This document shows positions 5,548 through 45,708 of a stretch of DNA of 45,843 nt, piece after piece. The stretch comes from a virus: IMG/VR virus record IMGVR_UViG_3300037502_001688, positions 1 through 45,843 of that record; one strand, given 5' to 3'. A program made the translations under genes and the position numbers. Every line of letters starts with the position of its first letter. Within the stretch, counting starts at the first letter, position 1. Under the pieces are notes generated by a model that did no database searches, was not told where the DNA came from, and was given only the letters and a program-made list of their open reading frames with translations.

Positions 5548-5997
5548 TCAAAACCCCACTCTAATTGAAACAGCCAAAGCCTCACCCATCAGCAGCACAG
5601 TCGGCTGAACCCTGTACTTGGTATAGCTCACCATCGGTACGACAAGCGGTAGCACCCTAGTCTTGTCGTCGTAATCGCCATAGAAGCCCCTGTAGCCGCG
5701 TACAGCGCCCAATACAACCTTTGCCTCTACGTCGCCCTTACTCCATGTCCATGTGCGCCCTAAAGCGTAGCTCTCGCGCCCGTAGCTATTTCGGAATCTG
5801 GCGGCGAAGATGCGCTTATGCTCAACGGCGAACAGATCATGGCTGCTAGTATACTCTCCGTCCGTGATCAGGTGCTTGCTCCAGGCTCCGGCGTAGATGT
5901 TCGTCTCAGCCCTCGCATTGCTCCCCCAAAGCGCCAAGGCTAGCACGACTATGGCGGCAACCCAGTACGGCGCGTCTTTGTGCTTAGGCCAGTTCAT
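5548..5997 (-). CDS. Exported outer-membrane barrel-like protein
   Basis: This 149-residue protein has an N-terminal hydrophobic segment (about 12-27) ending in a likely signal-peptidase site near NARAE. The rest alternates polar and hydrophobic residues and is rich in Tyr, Trp, Arg and Gly (IYAGAWSKHLITDGEYTS, FAARFRNSYGRESYALGR), ending in a terminal Phe as outer-membrane beta-barrels do. I have a general memory of similar uncharacterised phage and proteobacterial proteins. A strong GGAGGT site five bases before ATG 5997 fixes the start. It may alter the cell surface, for example to block superinfection; this is inference. Confidence 0.75.
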   Translation of the reverse strand: MNWPKHKDAPYWVAAIVVLALALWGSNARAETNIYAGAWSKHLITDGEYTSSHDLFAVEHKRIFAARFRNSYGRESYALGRTWTWSKGDVEAKVVLGAVRGYRGFYGDYDDKTRVLPLVVPMVSYTKYRVQPTVLLMGEALAVSIRVGF

Positions 5998-6382: not shown

Positions 6383-7009
6383 TCACTTCTCCGTCAGGTT
6401 GTTGTCTTTCATCCATTTCAGGATGGCGTCGGCTTGCCCGTGCGTGCTGTAGCCTGTGTCTTCAAGAATACTCAGCAACTCCTCCCGCATCCGCTGTTCT
6501 GGGGTTTGGTATGGCTTGCAGGCAGAGGCAGCGACCTTTACCCATGTGCCTTTGTCGCTTACGTTTTCCCTTTCAACAATTAGCACTCCATTAACATCTG
6601 GCCCTAGCACAACCTCGCCGTGCCCTGTCGGAAATCTTACCTTAGAGCCCACAGGCGGCAACCCATCCACCCACTCGGGCTCAAGCCAATCAGGCTTCTT
6701 CCCTAATGGCGGCTTCCAGTATTCTCCACCATGGTATGTGTACCCCATAGACTCAAGCGTTTTTACGGCTTGCTTATCTGGAGTCCACTCGGTTTTGGTG
6801 GGGCGGGGGAAAGTCGGGTTGGTCTGCTTCACATAATCGTAGTTTCCTTGCCCGTGATAGGCACACCAATCGCCATCTCTATGCCAGAAGCCTTTAGGAC
6901 AAAAAAACATTTTGCTCCTAGTATCAAAGTCAGTGGCCCATCTATCCGGAGCAACCTCATCCCAATAATCCGCATCAACCCTCAACCGCTCAATATCAAT
7001 CTCACTCAT
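6383..7009 (-). CDS. Hypothetical early protein with SH3-like C-terminal region
   Basis: This 208-residue protein is probably cytoplasmic. The first half is rich in Trp, Tyr and Asp (for example RWATDFDTRS and GDWCAYHGQGNYDY). The second half (about 112-170) has the pattern PVGSKVRFPTGHGEVV then a hydrophobic strand and TWVKVAAS, followed by TPEQRMREEL. That pattern resembles a short beta-barrel domain often fused to different N-termini in phage early proteins. The function is unknown. It overlaps the next upstream gene by four bases. Confidence 0.7.
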   Translation of the reverse strand: MSEIDIERLRVDADYWDEVAPDRWATDFDTRSKMFFCPKGFWHRDGDWCAYHGQGNYDYVKQTNPTFPRPTKTEWTPDKQAVKTLESMGYTYHGGEYWKPPLGKKPDWLEPEWVDGLPPVGSKVRFPTGHGEVVLGPDVNGVLIVERENVSDKGTWVKVAASACKPYQTPEQRMREELLSILEDTGYSTHGQADAILKWMKDNNLTEK

Positions 7010-7323
7010 TTCAATTCTCCGTCTAGTTGGGCTAGGAGGGTGCGGGCGTTTGCGTCCACTATCGGATGGTCTGGGTCTTTCAAAAGCATCCGCAAAGCCT
7101 CAACCAGTTTGGCGTGGTACGTAGCGGCCTGAACAACAAACTCAGCATTCGCCCGCGCCTTCTGCGCCCCGATACCGGGATCATCGTCGCATCCGTAACA
7201 CACAATGAATCCGTTCCAACGAACATGCCCGACGTCAGGATCGCCCATGGGCGCGTCAATCTCCACGGCTTGCGGATCTCGTTGCGCCGGTATCGCCCAT
7301 GGTAATGGTGTATGCTTCCCCAT
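7006..7323 (-). CDS. Hypothetical phage protein with ANAEFVVQA motif
   Basis: This 105-residue protein opens MGKHTPLPW and carries QKARANAEFVVQAATYHAKLVEALRMLL near residues 55-85. The opening plus this helix is a common pattern in small accessory phage proteins of unknown role (Ea22-like and similar families). It is coupled to its neighbours by a four-base overlap downstream and a one-base gap upstream. Confidence 0.7.
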   Translation of the reverse strand: MGKHTPLPWAIPAQRDPQAVEIDAPMGDPDVGHVRWNGFIVCYGCDDDPGIGAQKARANAEFVVQAATYHAKLVEALRMLLKDPDHPIVDANARTLLAQLDGELK

Positions 7324-7859: not shown

Positions 7860-7893
7860 TCCACCCCACCATTACGCCATAGGTTGGGGTGGG
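7860..7893. repeat. GT-rich inverted intergenic element
   Basis: This gap element contains CCACCCCACC and GGTTGGGGTGGGG facing each other around ATTACGCCATA. It resembles the TATGGTTGGGGTG box found before two other genes (16731 on plus and 42860 on minus), and like them it lies just before a strong ribosome site. Confidence 0.4.
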
Positions 7894-7920
7894 GTTGCCA
7901 ATAACGTTTAGCTCTTTCAG

Positions 7921-8529
7921 TTACTTCGGATATGGCTCAATCTTATAACGCAGCGCCGCCATGGCCTTACGCTTAAACGACTTCGACCCAACCAGATAAA
8001 CATACCGGTGCTTCCGTGGCCTCGGGTGCAAGTAAAAGTCATCGCCGTACTTTGCTCGCATGGCCGCCGCTCGGTCTTTGGTGCCTCGGAACTCATCGGC
8101 AATGGTCTGGCCGTGTAAATGCTCCTTACCCTTCACCTTCCAGTCTGTCCGCTTGGCGCTTAATCCACAGTACAGGAAGTTGCAAGCCTGATAAACGTAG
8201 CCCTTATGGTCTTGCTCGGTATCGGCAAAGCTGACCACAATGCACTCCGGCAGCATTTTCAGGCTACGGCCAACCAGCATGGATGCCTCATTCTTGCGAT
8301 TGTACTTGAGGCATAGACGGTTAAGCTCTAGCACTTGATGCTTGTAGTCGTCTCCGGCAATGCCGCGCTTTAGTGGTGCACTAGGCGGTGTGCCGTAAGT
8401 GACCACTCCGACCAGCTCATCTGTGTCGAATAGCCCGAATGCGTAACTGATTGACGGCCAGCGCTTGGCGTAATGGATTTCGAGAATGAATGGCGCACAG
8501 TCGGCGCGGCTTATCGGTTTTACTTCCAC
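7921..8529 (-). CDS. Mom-like DNA-modification protein (GNAT-like fold)
   Basis: This protein of about 202 residues resembles the Mom family, which in phage Mu modifies adenine in phage DNA to a methylcarbamoyl form and so evades restriction. Visible similarities are an N-terminal EVKPISRADCAPFI, HYAKRWPSISYAFGLF, VGVVTYGTPPS, LELNRLCLKYN, SMLVGRSLK and SFADTEQDHKGYVYQACNFLY. The likely start is GTG 8529, five bases after AAGGGTGA; an in-frame start at 8574 would add 15 residues. No com-like zinc-finger regulator lies beside it. The family call is from motif memory; the chemical product is inference. Confidence 0.82.
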   Translation of the reverse strand: MEVKPISRADCAPFILEIHYAKRWPSISYAFGLFDTDELVGVVTYGTPPSAPLKRGIAGDDYKHQVLELNRLCLKYNRKNEASMLVGRSLKMLPECIVVSFADTEQDHKGYVYQACNFLYCGLSAKRTDWKVKGKEHLHGQTIADEFRGTKDRAAAMRAKYGDDFYLHPRPRKHRYVYLVGSKSFKRKAMAALRYKIEPYPK

Positions 8530-8565
8530 ATTGCTCACCCTTGCAACAAGCCCGGAAAAGAAGAT

Positions 8566-8617
8566 TAGCGGCAACGAGTCCGGGTGTACTCGCGTTCGGG
8601 GATCAGCCTAGCCGCTA
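8566..8617 (-). promoter_or_regulatory. Nested hairpin in the Mom-like gene leader
   Basis: TAGCGGC (8566-8572) pairs with GCCGCTA (8611-8617), and inside them CGAGT (8575-8579) pairs with ACTCG (8588-8592). In RNA this would be a two-level stem upstream of the mom-like start. The ribosome site itself is not in the stem. Confidence 0.4.
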
Positions 8618-8722
8618 AACACATTATAGCAATTGCCGATGCTTATAACCACCCGCCCAAATGAGAATGATTGTTGTGTTGTGGTGATTTTGTATGGTGG
8701 TAACTTTTTGCCCGCGCTGGTT

Positions 8723-16366: not shown

Positions 16367-16726
16367 ATGACTGTGCCAAGTGAGCATTATGAACAGGTGC
16401 GATTCGTGGGCAAGTTCTCGATTCTTTACCCTGATGTGAGAATCTTTGCCATCCCGAACGGTGGCCACCGTGGCAAGGTTACAGCGGCCAAAATGAAGCA
16501 GGAAGGGGTGCGCCGTGGCGTGCCCGACCTGTATGTGCCAGCCTGGAAGCTGTGGATTGAAATGAAGCTGGTTAAGGGCGGCTCCGTGTCAGCCGATCAA
16601 AAGGACTGGCATGAATATCTGAGGGGCATTGGGGATACGGTTTTGGTTTGTCGGGGTTCTGACGAAGCTCTGTTATTAGTAGGTCAGTTCTTAGAACAAA
16701 ACAATATTTCCCGCCAAACCCCGTAG
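16367..16726 (+). CDS. VRR-NUC domain nuclease
   Basis: This 119-residue protein is a stand-alone VRR-NUC nuclease. The key motifs are IPNGGHRGKV, GVRRGVPDLYVP (catalytic D) and WIEMKLVKGG (ExK), followed by SADQKDWHEYL. Such proteins cut branched DNA or act as Holliday-junction nucleases; in phages they usually sit beside helicases, as here. The ribosome site GAGGTGA precedes the ATG. Confidence 0.9.
   Translation: MTVPSEHYEQVRFVGKFSILYPDVRIFAIPNGGHRGKVTAAKMKQEGVRRGVPDLYVPAWKLWIEMKLVKGGSVSADQKDWHEYLRGIGDTVLVCRGSDEALLLVGQFLEQNNISRQTP
16697..16710 (+). repeat. CAAAACAATATTTC box, copy 1
   Basis: This is the first of three near-identical boxes (others at 19900 and 23507). It lies at the end of the VRR-NUC gene and is followed at once by a CCGCC/GGCGG hairpin (16711-16730). 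Confidence 0.55.
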
Positions 16727-16730
16727 GCGG

Positions 16731-16743
16731 TATGGTTGGGGTG
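16731..16743 (+). repeat. TATGGTTGGGGTG box
   Basis: The same 13 bases occur on the minus strand at 42860-42872, again shortly before the ribosome site of a small gene. A related sequence is at 7880-7891. Confidence 0.5.
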
Positions 16744-16767
16744 TTGGTTAACGGATAGGAGTTTGAG

Positions 16768-18527: not shown

Positions 18528-18800
18528 GTGGGAGCGTTGAGTGATCGTATTGGAGATCTTGAGCCGAAGGGTAAGTACGAAAACGAAGACTGGGCAACTG
18601 GTTTTTATGCCGGGACAGAAGAAGCCGCCAACCTCGCCAAAGAGGCGGATGAGTTGATGGAGGAGATGGCAACCGTTATTGATTCGATAATCGGTGAGTG
18701 CGCATTGAAAGCGCTCGATGATGTATTGAATAGCGAGCCGTGCCATGAGGCTTGCGAGATTATAGAGCGATATAACACTTGGAAGGAGCGCACAAAATGA
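18528..18800 (+). CDS. Hypothetical acidic helical protein
   Basis: This 90-residue protein starts with GTG after GGGAGG. It is rich in Glu and Ala (EEAANLAKEADELMEEMATV) and predicted fully helical, with three Cys in its second half. No family is recognised. Confidence 0.65.
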   Translation: MGALSDRIGDLEPKGKYENEDWATGFYAGTEEAANLAKEADELMEEMATVIDSIIGECALKALDDVLNSEPCHEACEIIERYNTWKERTK

Positions 18801-18961
18801 AATGGTTTGTTTTGTTTTTTTCGGTCATTGTTGGCATCACAACATCGGACGTTATCGGATTGAGTCCTGCCCAATGGCAATACTGGTTTAATATTTTCAC
18901 AATAACCCTTGTTGGATCAGCAGCCCCATTTATTTTTGAATACCAGGAGCGCACAAAATGA
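18797..18961 (+). CDS. Small membrane protein, two helices
   Basis: This 54-residue protein has hydrophobic segments at about 3-20 and 32-46 (MKWFVLFFSVIVGITTSDV and FNIFTITLVGSAAPFIF). The start overlaps the previous stop (ATGA) and the end overlaps the next gene. A role at the host membrane is possible. Confidence 0.65.
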   Translation: MKWFVLFFSVIVGITTSDVIGLSPAQWQYWFNIFTITLVGSAAPFIFEYQERTK

Positions 18962-25963: not shown

Positions 25964-26775
25964 ACATCGAACTAAAACCAATCGCAGAATCCAAAGTCCG
26001 CCAGCTGGGCGGCGAAGTATTTGGGGTTGTTATCCGGGACAAGCGCGGTCGTTTTGCAGCCATTACTGAGATGGGGTTTGTGACCTGGCTGGATGAAGAC
26101 AAGGGCGGCGAATATGCGGCTTACCTTGAGGGCATGAATAGCCACCTAAAGGCTGAGCTGGAAGCCGCCCGCGCTCAGGGTGCTTGTGAATGGGCAGAAC
26201 AGCTTGACGCCTGTGAGTTTCACGGAAACGACCACGAAGTATGCGCTGAATACAGCGGGCAGGTTCCGTGCGCCCGCGCCCAAAGTGGGCAGGGTGCGGA
26301 GCCGGTGGCAGTGATCACTGATGCGGACAAGTTTATTCGCGAGGGGGTCGGTGCAGCTTACAAGGCTTCAATGGTGCCAAGAAGGGCCGGAGATATTGCA
26401 CTCTACACCCACCCCCAGTCCGCCCAGCAAGGGAGTGTGCCGGAGGGCTGGAAGCTGGTGCCGGTTGAGCCAACACATGAAATGCGCAGAAAGGCAGGAC
26501 TATGCCGGGGCGCAGATTTTTACACAATATCGCAGGTGTGGAATGCAATGCTATCTGCCACACCCCAGTCAGAGGGTGATGGGTGGGTTCGGTGCGATGA
26601 GCGGTTGCCGACTGAGGAAGATTGGTGGGTGTGGATTTACGATAGCGAAGATGGCGACATCTTCCACGCACTTTGGCGAGACCTGAAAGGTGACTACGAG
26701 AACGGTCACATGAACCTATCTCACTGGATGCCCACCGGCCTCAAGCGCCCACAACCACCGAAGGAGGGCGCGTGA
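25960..26775 (+). CDS. Ea22/DUF551-like accessory protein
   Basis: This 271-residue protein is built of phage-accessory modules. A middle segment holds EPVAVITDADKFIREGVG and ALYTHPQSAQQGSVPEGWKL, a modular linker common in Ea22-like proteins. The C-terminal region (about 205-271) is a DUF551 domain: GWVRCDERLPTEEDWWVWIY and HMNLSHWMPTGLKRPQPP. Such proteins vary by module exchange between phages. The function is unknown; not essential in lambda-like relatives. Confidence 0.78.
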   Translation: MNIELKPIAESKVRQLGGEVFGVVIRDKRGRFAAITEMGFVTWLDEDKGGEYAAYLEGMNSHLKAELEAARAQGACEWAEQLDACEFHGNDHEVCAEYSGQVPCARAQSGQGAEPVAVITDADKFIREGVGAAYKASMVPRRAGDIALYTHPQSAQQGSVPEGWKLVPVEPTHEMRRKAGLCRGADFYTISQVWNAMLSATPQSEGDGWVRCDERLPTEEDWWVWIYDSEDGDIFHALWRDLKGDYENGHMNLSHWMPTGLKRPQPPKEGA

Positions 26776-29360: not shown

Positions 29361-29387
29361 ACAAAAAAGGCCACGATAAACGCGGCC
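29361..29387 (-). terminator. Minus-strand intrinsic terminator after the spanin genes
   Basis: On the minus strand GGCCGCG pairs with CGTGGCC (seven pairs, one G-U) around TTTAT and is followed by TTTTTTGTTGTT. It ends transcripts coming from the lysis genes. Confidence 0.75.
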
Positions 29388-29422
29388 TCTGCGAAGCGTA
29401 CCAATTTGGGTCTGATGTGGCC

Positions 29423-29435
29423 TTTATTGGGACTG
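29423..29435. repeat. Direct repeat, left copy (TTTATTGGGACTG)
   Basis: The same 13 bases occur at 29654-29666, where they encode the last residues and stop of the Rz1-like gene. The two copies are 231 bases apart and bracket the small-RNA candidate. Confidence 0.7.
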
Positions 29436-29470
29436 GAATAAGAATTGCCTTTCATATGAAAAACCATTAT

Positions 29471-29499
29471 TTGAAAAAGAGAGCATATTTTGAAATACT
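29471..29499 (+). promoter_or_regulatory. Plus-strand promoter candidate
   Basis: TTGAAA (29471-29476), a 17-base spacer and AATACT (29494-29499) match the sigma-70 pattern well. No coding gene follows on the plus strand; the next signal is a terminator about 150 bases on. Confidence 0.5.
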
Positions 29500-29504
29500 G
29501 AAAG

Positions 29505-29657
29505 TCCTTTAAGGCAGTTTGCACCTAGCGCAAGCTGCTTGAATTTCTGACAACAACCAACTTGCCGAGCGCCACAACTGGAGGATGTCATGTGAACCGT
29601 AAGCCGCTTACAGGCCAATCCGTATAAGCAAGAGGGGTCTTAGTTGACCCCTTTTTA
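29505..29657 (+). ncRNA. Candidate small RNA, about 150 bases
   Basis: Between the promoter candidate and a strong terminator lies a sequence with no long open frame. Near its 5' end GCAGTTTGC (29514-29522) pairs with GCAAGCTGC (29530-29538), one G-U, extendable by two pairs; further on GTAAG and CTTAC can form a small stem (about 29600-29612). It runs against the surrounding late genes and ends at the 3' end of the Rz1-like gene. Confidence 0.5.
29633..29657 (+). terminator. Plus-strand intrinsic terminator
   Basis: AGGGGTC (29633-29639) pairs perfectly with GACCCCT (29646-29652), loop TTAGTT, followed by TTTTATT. The T-run is on the plus strand only, so it serves plus-strand RNA although all nearby genes are on the minus strand. 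Confidence 0.8.
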
Positions 29658-29666
29658 TTGGGACTG
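29654..29666. repeat. Direct repeat, right copy (TTTATTGGGACTG)
   Basis: Read on the minus strand it encodes Gln-Ser-Gln-stop of the Rz1-like protein. It is paired with 29423-29435. Confidence 0.7.
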
Positions 29667-29969
29667 CCTGAGCTCTTCAACAGTGAAGTCCTCTAGGCAC
29701 TGGTCAACAGCATCAGAATCTGGATTCATCTTGTAATACCTGCGCGCTGCCTGTTTCTTGATGGCGTCTTTGCATATCCAGAAGTACAGGTCAAAGCTCC
29801 AGTCGTAGAAGTCACCAAGCCTTTCGCCGCCTCTAACTGGTATTTCTGGATCAGCAATCCAACTAGGATCTGGCTTATCCGTCAGCTGACTTTGATTTTG
29901 CACTTGGGCCGAATGACATCCCGTCAGCAATATGCATATCCATGCACTCTTTAAGAGCCTTGCTAGCAT
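29655..29969 (-). CDS. Outer-membrane spanin, Rz1-like lipoprotein
   Basis: This 104-residue protein has a lipoprotein signal (MLARLLKSAWICILLTGC, lipid-bearing C18) and overlaps the Rz-like gene by 95 bases in another frame, the classic Rz/Rz1 arrangement. The mature part is about 87 residues, longer than lambda Rz1, and not strongly Pro-rich; it ends with a helical region (WICKDAIKKQAARRYY, then DQCLEDFTVEELRQSQ) containing two Cys. It should join Rz to fuse the membranes at lysis. Confidence 0.75.
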   Translation of the reverse strand: MLARLLKSAWICILLTGCHSAQVQNQSQLTDKPDPSWIADPEIPVRGGERLGDFYDWSFDLYFWICKDAIKKQAARRYYKMNPDSDAVDQCLEDFTVEELRQSQ

Positions 29970-30276
29970 TCTTTCTGGCCTCCTGTATTGCAAGCCGGTA
30001 CATTCTTTCGTTGCGCTCAAGCCGCTGCGTTAGCGTAACCTGCTCACTCAACGCCGCCTGACGCTCGTTATTCAACCTGGCCAACTGCTCAAGCCGTGCG
30101 TTCTGAATGGCAATCGTTTCCTCCTGCGCTTCCGCCCGCTGCTCAAGCCCGCCGAATTCTTTAAGCTCCATCCAGAACCAGTAACCGGCACCGGCTGCGG
30201 CAACCAGCAAGCCTATGGCAAGGTAGCCGCTAAAGGGTGTTGCTGCGAACTTACGAATCAGGTTTATCACGGTCAA
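29875..30276 (-). CDS. Inner-membrane spanin, Rz-like
   Basis: This 133-residue protein has one N-terminal membrane helix (about 17-36, GYLAIGLLVAAAGAGYWFWM) and a long periplasmic coiled coil (EQRAEAQEETIAIQNARLEQ onward), as Rz proteins do. A C-terminal region follows. It overlaps the downstream lipoprotein gene in a different frame and the upstream holin candidate by 26 bases. Confidence 0.85.
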   Translation of the reverse strand: MTVINLIRKFAATPFSGYLAIGLLVAAAGAGYWFWMELKEFGGLEQRAEAQEETIAIQNARLEQLARLNNERQAALSEQVTLTQRLERNERMYRLAIQEARKNASKALKECMDMHIADGMSFGPSAKSKSADG

Positions 30277-30463
30277 ACCTCCACTTGAGAATACCCGCCA
30301 CGGCAGCAGGCAACCCCATTAGTGTTGCATAGGCAGCCGCAGCAGGCGCAGTCAGGCTATCGGGATTCTCAAACACTTGCAGCGTCCCGTAACCAATCAG
30401 TATCAGATAGTATAGACTGATAACGCTGGTTAGTATGTAGTGGTCGTAGAGCCATCTAATCAT
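30251..30463 (-). CDS. Holin candidate
   Basis: This 70-residue protein has two membrane helices (about 8-30, HYILTSVISLYYLILIGYGT; and about 43-62, AAYATLMGLPAAVAGILKW) and a charged C-terminal tail (RFDRDKPDS), the shape of a class II holin. GGAGG lies 11 bases before ATG 30463. It sits between the endolysin and spanin genes and overlaps both. Confidence 0.75.
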   Translation of the reverse strand: MIRWLYDHYILTSVISLYYLILIGYGTLQVFENPDSLTAPAAAAYATLMGLPAAVAGILKWRFDRDKPDS

Positions 30464-30812
30464 AAAGCCACAAGACCTCCTGATCTTTGGATTTGTCCAC
30501 GTCCACATGAACGAAGCTGGATGCAACCCCGATTCTTGTCAGCCCGCGAGCTATCAGAGATTGGGCAATAATGAATCTGTTTCGACTGCCGTTAGCGGCA
30601 ATGTCCACCGCCAATCCTTTTGTGTGCGCACTCCCCTCAACGCCACCCACTGCTGCGTTATGTTTTGCGCATCGATACGCCGAGTTGATCACAAAAGGCA
30701 CGCCAGCGATATGACGAGCCGCATCGAGATGCTGCAAGAGCTGCTGACTCATTTTGTCAAAGCCCTCGCCGCAGCAAGGGCAGGCGAACTCTTCTGGCTT
30801 GAAATATCGCAT
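30456..30812 (-). CDS. Endolysin, peptidase M15 family
   Basis: This 118-residue enzyme should cut peptidoglycan cross-links. It has the M15 zinc ligands: H63 and D70 in SAHTKGLAVDI, and H102 in VHVDVD. NSAYRCAKHNAAVGG and the opening RYFKPEEFACPCCGEG are typical of Peptidase_M15_3 phage endolysins. It has no signal peptide and needs a holin. AGGAGG precedes the ATG. Confidence 0.92.
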   Translation of the reverse strand: MRYFKPEEFACPCCGEGFDKMSQQLLQHLDAARHIAGVPFVINSAYRCAKHNAAVGGVEGSAHTKGLAVDIAANGSRNRFIIAQSLIARGLTRIGVASSFVHVDVDKSKDQEVLWLYD

Positions 30813-40543: not shown

Positions 40544-40574
40544 TAGTATAGCATAAGGGATTGTGAGGTTAGAA

Positions 40575-40967
40575 CTATTCGCTATATTCGATAGTGACGG
40601 CGATTGACATGCGATCAGCTTCAGAACGGAGCGTGCCGGTGTACGGGTGCGAGCCTACGCGAACGTTGCCGCTGATTGGCGTGCCCTTGGGGAATGCAGC
40701 CATGACCTGCTCAGCCACAGCTCTGAGCTTTAGTTCCGACTGCGGGCGGCTAACGCATACTATCTGATAAATGCCTTGCGGGCTTACGTGTCCGTCATTG
40801 GCTAGTCTGTCGTCTACGCCGCGATTTGGCAGGAAGGTGACTTCAAGCCATGCGCCGGAGGTTGGCGGTGTAAATGGCAGGCCAAGCCACGCAATGTCAT
40901 AACCCAATGACGCAGCAATAAGGATGTCGTTTAGTGCTGTCTGGATGGTGCTGTTGGATGGTGTCAC
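40575..40967 (-). CDS. Tail terminator, DUF4128-like
   Basis: This 130-residue protein opens MTPSNSTIQTALNDILIAAS and contains WLEVTFLPNRGVDDRLANDG and GIYQIVCVSRPQSELKLRAV, which resemble DUF4128/gpU-type proteins that cap the tail. It lies between the gp10-like connector and the tail tube, the normal position. Confidence 0.82.
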   Translation of the reverse strand: MTPSNSTIQTALNDILIAASLGYDIAWLGLPFTPPTSGAWLEVTFLPNRGVDDRLANDGHVSPQGIYQIVCVSRPQSELKLRAVAEQVMAAFPKGTPISGNVRVGSHPYTGTLRSEADRMSIAVTIEYSE

Positions 40968-42579: not shown

Positions 42580-42606
42580 AACTCCCTCCACTCCAATCAG
42601 TATATC

Positions 42607-42629
42607 AAAAAAGCCCGCGTTGTGCGGGC
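42607..42629 (-). terminator. Minus-strand intrinsic terminator within the late region
   Basis: On the minus strand GCCCGC pairs perfectly with GCGGGC around ACAAC and is followed by TTTTTTGATA. It should stop most late transcripts between head and tail genes unless they are anti-terminated. Confidence 0.8.
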
Positions 42630-42636
42630 GGGGTGG

Positions 42637-42837
42637 TTAGTCTACGTATTCCTTGAAATATTCTTGCAACGCCTTAAACGCGTCCCGGTCAACAACAGAT
42701 TGTTCGTGGCCGTGCAAGATGCTAGAAGCAATCATTTCAAGATAGCCGATCCTGAACTTTAAATCTTTTATCTCTTCCTCAAGCGGATAAACATCACACT
42801 CTGCACAGGGCGCAATATTACCGTGTTCACATAACAT
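42637..42837 (-). CDS. Small Cys/His protein
   Basis: This 66-residue protein opens MLCEHGNIAPCAECDVYPLE, with a CxxH...CxxC set that may bind zinc, then a helical part. GGAGGGAG precedes ATG 42837. It looks like an accessory (moron-like) gene: it is followed by its own terminator and preceded by a repeated intergenic box. Confidence 0.62.
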   Translation of the reverse strand: MLCEHGNIAPCAECDVYPLEEEIKDLKFRIGYLEMIASSILHGHEQSVVDRDAFKALQEYFKEYVD

Positions 42838-44553: not shown

Positions 44554-45708
44554 TTAGCCGGTGATGCCGTACAGGCGGCCCATGTGGGTCTGGCTCTGGC
44601 GTACTTCCATCGCAAAGTCACCGATGATACGAGTACGCTGACCGTCCTGACCGTTCTGGGTGGCGTCCACGGTGCGCCATGCGCCGGAGTCAGCAGCGTT
44701 ACCGGCAGCCATCGGGATGATGTTGATCTTGCCGGAATCGTAGATCACCAGCTCGTCGTCAGACAGGTTAGTGTCGATAACGATCTGATTCACGTTACCA
44801 ACCAGCGGCAGGTCAGTCGGCAGACGCAGGATTGAACCCTCGTCAGCAGTCCAGTTGGCCAGACGGTCAGAGCTGTAGTTCGCGCTCACCAGAGCGTTCA
44901 GCTTGCGGGCCAGCGGGATACCTACGGCAATGGTGTTGGCCATGCCGCCACGGGACACGATCTCGGCGTTAATCGCGTTGATCTTGTCCAGATCCAGAGC
45001 GCCAGCTGCGTCAGTGTTGATTGCGCCAGACTGGCCAAGGAAATACCGCAGGCCGCCAGTGTAGGTCACAGTGTCGCCGCCGATGGTGGCGGTTGCCTTG
45101 CGGCCACGAACCAGAGCGCGATCCATCTGAATGGTCAGTTGGCGAATACGCTCGGAAACCTGGAAGGCCAGATCATTGGTGCTACCGAACTGGATGGTAG
45201 CCAAGGCGCGACGGCTGAACTCAACGGCGGTGTCCATGGTCTGGAAGAAGTTTTCAACCGGATCAGGCTGGAAAATGCCATCGTTCTGAGCCAGTGAGTT
45301 TTCCTCACGACCTACGGAGTCAATGGTCAACACGTCACCGCTTGCGATAGTCGCAGCAGTGGAGCCGCCAAAACCACGGACGACTGTGAGGTCATTGCCG
45401 GACACCGCAGTTACCAGAACCACTTCCTCAGAGCCTTCCGGGCTCAGGGTCATACCAGCGCGGAACTTGGAGCCGTCTTCTACGCTGATGGTAGTAGCGG
45501 CTGCCAGAGCTTCGGCTGTGGTCGGTGAACTGGTAGCGTCAACGCGCATATCCAGCCATGACATCTTGTAGCCGTCATACGGTACGCGAGCGCCGCCCAT
45601 GCCAACAGTGGCAAGAATGCCGGTGCGGTTGGAGCGTGCGATTTCAAACGCTTCGTTGATTACCTTGTCATTCAGCAGGGCTGAAAGATCCGGAGAGAGT
45701 ACAGGCAT
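44554..45708 (-). CDS. Major capsid protein, SU10/DUF5309 type (right copy)
   Basis: This 384-residue copy matches the one at 94-1248 apart from two residues (S for I near 123; A for S near 233). Many silent differences exist, so selection has kept the protein. It follows the scaffold and precedes the small head gene in normal order. It is either the same gene seen again in a circular map or a second allele from a co-occurring strain. Confidence 0.9.
   Translation of the reverse strand: MPVLSPDLSALLNDKVINEAFEIARSNRTGILATVGMGGARVPYDGYKMSWLDMRVDATSSPTTAEALAAATTISVEDGSKFRAGMTLSPEGSEEVVLVTAVSGNDLTVVRGFGGSTAATIASGDVLTIDSVGREENSLAQNDGIFQPDPVENFFQTMDTAVEFSRRALATIQFGSTNDLAFQVSERIRQLTIQMDRALVRGRKATATIGGDTVTYTGGLRYFLGQSGAINTDAAGALDLDKINAINAEIVSRGGMANTIAVGIPLARKLNALVSANYSSDRLANWTADEGSILRLPTDLPLVGNVNQIVIDTNLSDDELVIYDSGKINIIPMAAGNAADSGAWRTVDATQNGQDGQRTRIIGDFAMEVRQSQTHMGRLYGITG

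Follow-up and report, generated by a model that had tools for sequence, protein, structure and literature searches.

Pseudomonas phage PAK_P4 encodes an antisense RNA, PAK_P4as15, at its endolysin gene; this RNA is absent from the related phage PAK_P3 and has been suggested to delay lysis (PMC12197685), and PAK_P3 itself produces early antisense RNAs over its late genes (PMC4933390). These RNAs provide precedents for antisense over late and lysis genes. Other antisense regulators, OOP and aQ of lambda and sar of P22, act on cII, Q and ant, and VpdS, PreS, AgvB and AsxR are trans-acting phage small RNAs (PMC12197685). Here we analysed a viral DNA of 45,843 nucleotides (nt) in its full length (IMG/VR virus record IMGVR_UViG_3300037502_001688; hereafter the window), in which a segment bounded by two 13-nt direct repeats carries a candidate small-RNA unit. 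All lysis genes of the window lie on the minus strand, and the unit sits between the last of these, encoding an Rz1-like outer-membrane spanin lipoprotein, and a metallophosphatase/exonuclease-like gene.

The explanation we favour, and to which we would give about an even chance, is that this insert is an accessory small-RNA gene of ~150 nt with a host-type promoter and terminator. It would have been gained through the joining of a diverged Rz/Rz1 allele to a conserved linker, which left the tail of the old Rz1 gene in place. The observed basis of this explanation is the anatomy of the segment, the absence of the insert from three related viral contigs (L001, L106 and L110), the gene remnant, and a step in DNA identity across the site; transcription of the predicted RNA we infer. 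The features of the segment and its immediate border are as follows.

29423-29435, no strand: left copy of the 13-nt repeat, the ancestral Rz1 3' end (CAGTCCCAATAAA on the minus strand), contiguous with the linker in L001, L106 and L110
29436-29454, minus strand: probably what remains of the 3' end of the old short Rz1 (ERQF-LF before QSQ*), from similarity tests against L001 and L110
29450-29461, no strand: perfect 12-nt palindrome TTTCATATGAAA, just upstream of the promoter and bordering the old Rz1 remnant
29471-29499, plus strand: sigma-70-like promoter with extended -10 (TTGAAA, 17 nt, AATACT, TG before the -10), predicted start about 29504-29507
29506-29657, plus strand: predicted small RNA of about 150 nt, from promoter, terminator and folding
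29512-29540, plus strand: 5' hairpin of 11 base pairs (bp) with a 7-nt loop, -15.9 kcal/mol, z -3.4
29580-29627, plus strand: GGAGG, 7 nt, and an 11-codon GTG frame (MNRKPLTGQSV*), read from the sequence
29630-29656, plus strand: intrinsic terminator ending at the Rz1 stop codon, -16.2 kcal/mol, z -4.6
29654-29666, no strand: right copy of the 13-nt repeat, the 3' end of the present Rz1
29390-29366, minus strand: linker terminator, with its T run to about 29361
29365-29436, minus strand: module-boundary linker with the old Rz1 stop and the minus-strand terminator, 98.6% identical over these 72 bp in L106, where the next gene differs

The repeat TTTATTGGGACTG occurs exactly twice in the window with a spacing of 231 nt, which bears out the original prediction of exact repeats bracketing the segment, and exact direct repeats of at least 13 nt within 400 bp are found at only three places in the 45.8 kb. 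Likewise, the promoter, 11-pair hairpin and terminator that had been proposed on the strand opposite to the neighbouring genes, and the minus-strand terminator just outside, were all located. The claim that the segment has no long frame held for the plus strand, where the longest frame is 31 amino acids (aa), while on the minus strand the frame 29424-29618 is also open for 64 aa. As the T run of the insert terminator is on the plus strand and its stem ends at the Rz1 stop, it would serve a plus-strand RNA and insulate that RNA from the late operon. The guanine-cytosine (GC) content of the insert is 43%, against 51% in its flanks, which is a weak criterion for 218 nt of noncoding DNA. The palindrome TTTCATATGAAA is one of seven perfect 12-nt palindromes in the window and may act as an operator or be a scar left by the joining, while the 11-codon GTG frame is a possible tiny open reading frame (ORF) that has probably arisen by chance. 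A promoter-like site on the minus strand (29494-29466) also overlaps the plus-strand promoter and, together with the linker terminator, would yield a minus-strand RNA of ~95 nt.

We compared this site with related sequences. L001, L106 and L110 each carry a single repeat copy and lack the insert at the corresponding place, and so provide the insert-free relatives with one repeat that the original prediction had proposed as a check. In all three a short Rz1 ends in ...ERQFYQSQ*, with its stop codon running directly into the linker with the minus-strand terminator. The DNA match of L001 to the window begins exactly at 29436 and continues at 96–97%, and L110 is a more distant version of the locus. 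The end of Rz1 and the linker are thus contiguous in all three relatives and the unit lies between genes that are adjacent there, as in a moron, although the Rz1 allele differs too. The relatives also overturn the view that the right copy is the true end of Rz1 and the left copy its duplicate, as they show the left copy to be the ancestral junction between the Rz1 end and the linker, with the right copy belonging to a longer allele.

Further comparison of the flanks showed that the minus strand at 29454-29423 reads ERQF-LF-QSQ*, versus ERQF-Y-QSQ* in the relatives. The anchored similarity of this remnant was significant against L001 at the protein level (P = 0.003) and against L110 at the DNA level (P = 0.004), while the DNA-level test against L001 alone was not (P = 0.23). 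Neither L001 nor L110 shows any relation to the window sequence upstream of the right copy, and DNA identity to L001 falls from 97% beside the phosphatase gene to 80% towards Rz. A target-site duplication predicts that the tail of Rz1 seen in the relatives would be located outside the right copy; instead it is found beside the left copy, inside the insert, and a clean insertion of 231 bp with duplication of its target was therefore rejected on flank comparison. Of the proposal of an RNA-only moron inserted with target duplication, the punctuated opposite-strand unit and the contrast between insert and no insert survive, but the duplication does not. Judged from its flanks, the site is a mosaic module junction and not a clean transposition-like event, and its best history would be an exchange of the lysis end at the conserved terminator linker, in which the RNA unit was either carried along or formed at the joint.

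Set against the window over its full length, the L001 contig showed a mosaic of the usual kind, made up of patches at 90–98% identity and replaced stretches, with several short patches near gene ends. Short patches at 95–100% identity were seen at 6652-6678, 6973-7049, 7863-7905, 8641-8693, 16697-16751, 26271-26303, 26722-26759 and 42596-42644. Such short L001-like patches, several of them at gene ends, are consistent with module exchange at conserved linkers.

We next weighed the RNA-unit prediction itself. A promoter followed by a terminator at the right distance was obtained in 0/3000 dinucleotide shuffles of the insert, and the same promoter-terminator rule picks out a single further plus-strand unit in the window (40561-40728). 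A promoter and terminator of its own, as expected for a moron, are present in the insert by sequence pattern and folding. Several points weigh against the interpretation that we favour. The promoter scores 9/12 and by itself does no better than chance, with an expectation of 1.2 such sites per 1.5 kb scanned; AT-rich DNA yields promoter sites of this kind by chance, and the minus-strand promoter-like site overlaps this one. The fold of the ~150-nt predicted RNA is only moderately better than that of shuffled sequences (z -1.9). As the searches found no homologs of the insert, neither covariation nor conservation can be shown. In addition, whether the insert was gained in the window or lost in the relatives is judged from three no-insert relatives with no rooted tree; the insert is absent in 3/4 of the sequences compared, and four sequences do not root the ancestral state. 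Lastly, the antisense overlap is limited to the 3' untranslated region of the lysis transcript, which leaves any effect on lysis speculative.

Homologs of the insert were found neither in phages using distant blastn, nor in plasmids, nor with exact and degenerate patterns in viral contigs, and it was also absent from 49 viral records related mainly by their terminase and from 5 further records. Examination of 369 genomes, from the class of a terminase-bearing bacterial metagenome bin, gave only matches of 19–41 nt, mostly to the AT-rich promoter part, which we regarded as chance given the 369 tests made, the best for any one genome being 6e-5. A search of Rfam returned nothing above the gathering threshold for the insert, and at a relaxed threshold all matches had E above 1.

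The main rival overall is that the segment is non-functional junk at a recombination joint, formed by illegitimate recombination between two lysis alleles, with a promoter-like site due to chance and hairpins that are debris. We regard this as a distinctly possible explanation: the segment lies exactly at the mosaic junction next to a gene remnant, all homolog searches were negative, the promoter score is weak, and the plus strand of the window has the one other promoter-terminator unit of equal quality. It does not readily account for the shuffling result, however, nor for the 11-bp hairpin lying between promoter and terminator, and the T run of the terminator is placed to serve a plus-strand RNA and not Rz1. 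Furthermore, phages tend to lose useless DNA.

For function, the main alternative to action on the lysis transcript is a host target in trans. A trans-acting regulatory RNA carried as a moron would use its single-stranded middle to act on mRNAs of the host or the phage and be unrelated to the lysis transcript, which we consider unlikely but within reach. Its layout is like that of bacterial small RNAs, with a 5' hairpin, a ACAACAACCAAC-containing middle that is largely unpaired in folding, and a 3' terminator with a U run, but this U run is short and no phage target stands out. In a genome-wide scan of duplex energy over the phage mRNAs, which ignores accessibility, the best sites were within the expected tail. 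As a candidate target, the region around the start of a PagP-like gene (at about 6000 on the minus strand) compared well with shuffles, but it was rejected because it too falls within the tail of the genome-wide scan. The product of this gene (5548-5997, minus strand) is a PagP-like lipid A acylation protein (PHROG 3600, E 1.5e-21) and represents a protein moron of the phage.

A very short mRNA is improbable. It would encode either the 11-residue peptide, for which the Shine-Dalgarno-like GGAGG is ideally spaced 7 nt upstream of the GTG at 29592 and the frame ends just before the terminator, or a 64-residue product from the open minus-strand frame. However, the GGAGG immediately precedes an ATG in another frame and an ATG-TGA, and the 64-residue product has no family match. 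Least probable of all is a transposon-like insertion, or one like a miniature inverted-repeat transposable element (MITE), with a 13-bp target-site duplication, for which the exact flanking repeats and the single copy in the relatives would speak but which is largely refuted by outer flanks that fail to match the empty site (beside the left copy the old tail is kept beyond 13 nt, and upstream of the right copy the sequence differs), by the lack of terminal inverted repeats at the insert ends and of further insert copies in the window, and by exchange of the Rz1 gene as well.

Returning to the accessory small-RNA gene, its position suggests how it might act. The predicted RNA lies between the Rz1 stop (29655) and the minus-strand terminator (29366) and, by this position, would be fully complementary to the inferred opposing lysis transcript, whose 3' untranslated region, if the transcript ends at 29390-29366, is about 290 nt in the window and about 60–70 nt in L001. 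We propose that recombination joined the diverged Rz/Rz1 allele to the conserved terminator linker, with the 3' tail of the old Rz1 remaining at the site. The RNA would then be made early from its host-sigma promoter and may pair in cis with the 3' untranslated region of the late lysis transcript, which could mark the lysis mRNA for double-strand cleavage or lower its stability or output, until strong late transcription in the opposite direction overruns and titrates the RNA.

The surrounding genes are listed below.

30456-30812, minus strand: M15 endolysin
30251-30526, minus strand: small ORF of the lysis region
29875-30276, minus strand: Rz-like inner-membrane spanin, with a weak match to PHROG 89 (E 1.7e-4) and 74% identity to L001
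29655 to about 29969, minus strand: Rz1-like outer-membrane spanin lipoprotein (MLARLLKSAWICILLTGC...), a diverged allele with about 24 extra C-terminal residues
28074-29303, minus strand: metallophosphatase-like / DNA repair exonuclease gene of the next module, PHROG 704, protein 100% identical in L001

The Rz1-like assignment is based on the lipobox MLARLLKSAWICILLTGC and on an ORF (29655-30020) that overlaps the end of Rz (29875-30276), while the protein gave no Pfam or PHROG match and is 44% identical to the Rz1 of L001. Early-type genes occupy the plus strand from about 11.8 to 27.7 kb. Phages of Pseudoalteromonas, Aeromonas, Alteromonas and Vibrio have terminases related to that of the record. 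The ends of the record carry a near-identical repeat and it is probably circular, assembled with strain variation at the ends; a major capsid gene is present at both ends (94-1248 and 44554-45708), with a few differences between the copies.

Other junctions in the window were also noted. An int-alpA RNA match from Rfam (8551-8618, minus strand) reached 37.3 bits against a gathering score of 35.8 and overlaps a Mom-like DNA modification gene (7921-8574) at its predicted 5' end. Close by is the 53-bp stretch 8641-8693, which is 98% conserved in the L001 contig, and in that contig no int-alpA match reached threshold. This match is a possible second RNA-only unit at a module boundary. A linker, AGGAGCGCACAAAATGA, is repeated at 18784-18800 and 18945-18961, 161 nt apart and near the ends of adjacent small genes. 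A broader proposal, which we consider quite doubtful, is that the conserved terminator linkers between modules are sites at which phages of this group swap RNA-only cassettes, with the lysis-end RNA serving as a mobile lysis timer that, early in infection, would act from the 3' end to silence the late lysis transcript and be titrated by it later.

Noncoding accessory units are easily overlooked in phage annotation as they have no protein frame. If this one is expressed, mosaic exchange at linkers would move RNA genes as well as protein modules, and the locus would offer a testable case of an RNA positioned to act on a lysis transcript; with three insert-free relatives for contrast, it is a cleaner candidate than most predictions made from a single genome.

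Compared with known systems, the unit resembles PAK_P4as15 in lying on the strand opposite to the lysis genes and in being present in one phage but not in a close relative, but it differs in overlapping the 3' untranslated region after Rz1 and in being an RNA predicted from sequence. Like lambda OOP and aQ and P22 sar, it would be a short phage RNA with its own promoter, antisense to genes of lytic development; unlike these, which act on regulators, it complements the end of the lysis operon. VpdS, PreS, AgvB and AsxR consist of hairpins, a single-stranded stretch and a terminator, a layout to which that of the predicted RNA is similar, although it differs from them in having no demonstrable target or Hfq site and no Rfam match. 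As with phage morons, it is an extra unit of lower GC content, with its own promoter and terminator, between genes adjacent in relatives. Classical morons encode proteins, whereas this unit would be RNA-only and the neighbouring lysis allele has been exchanged as well. Phage small RNAs and morons are both known kinds of element, and the unit described here would join them as a new member, one whose contrast with insert-free relatives is well defined.
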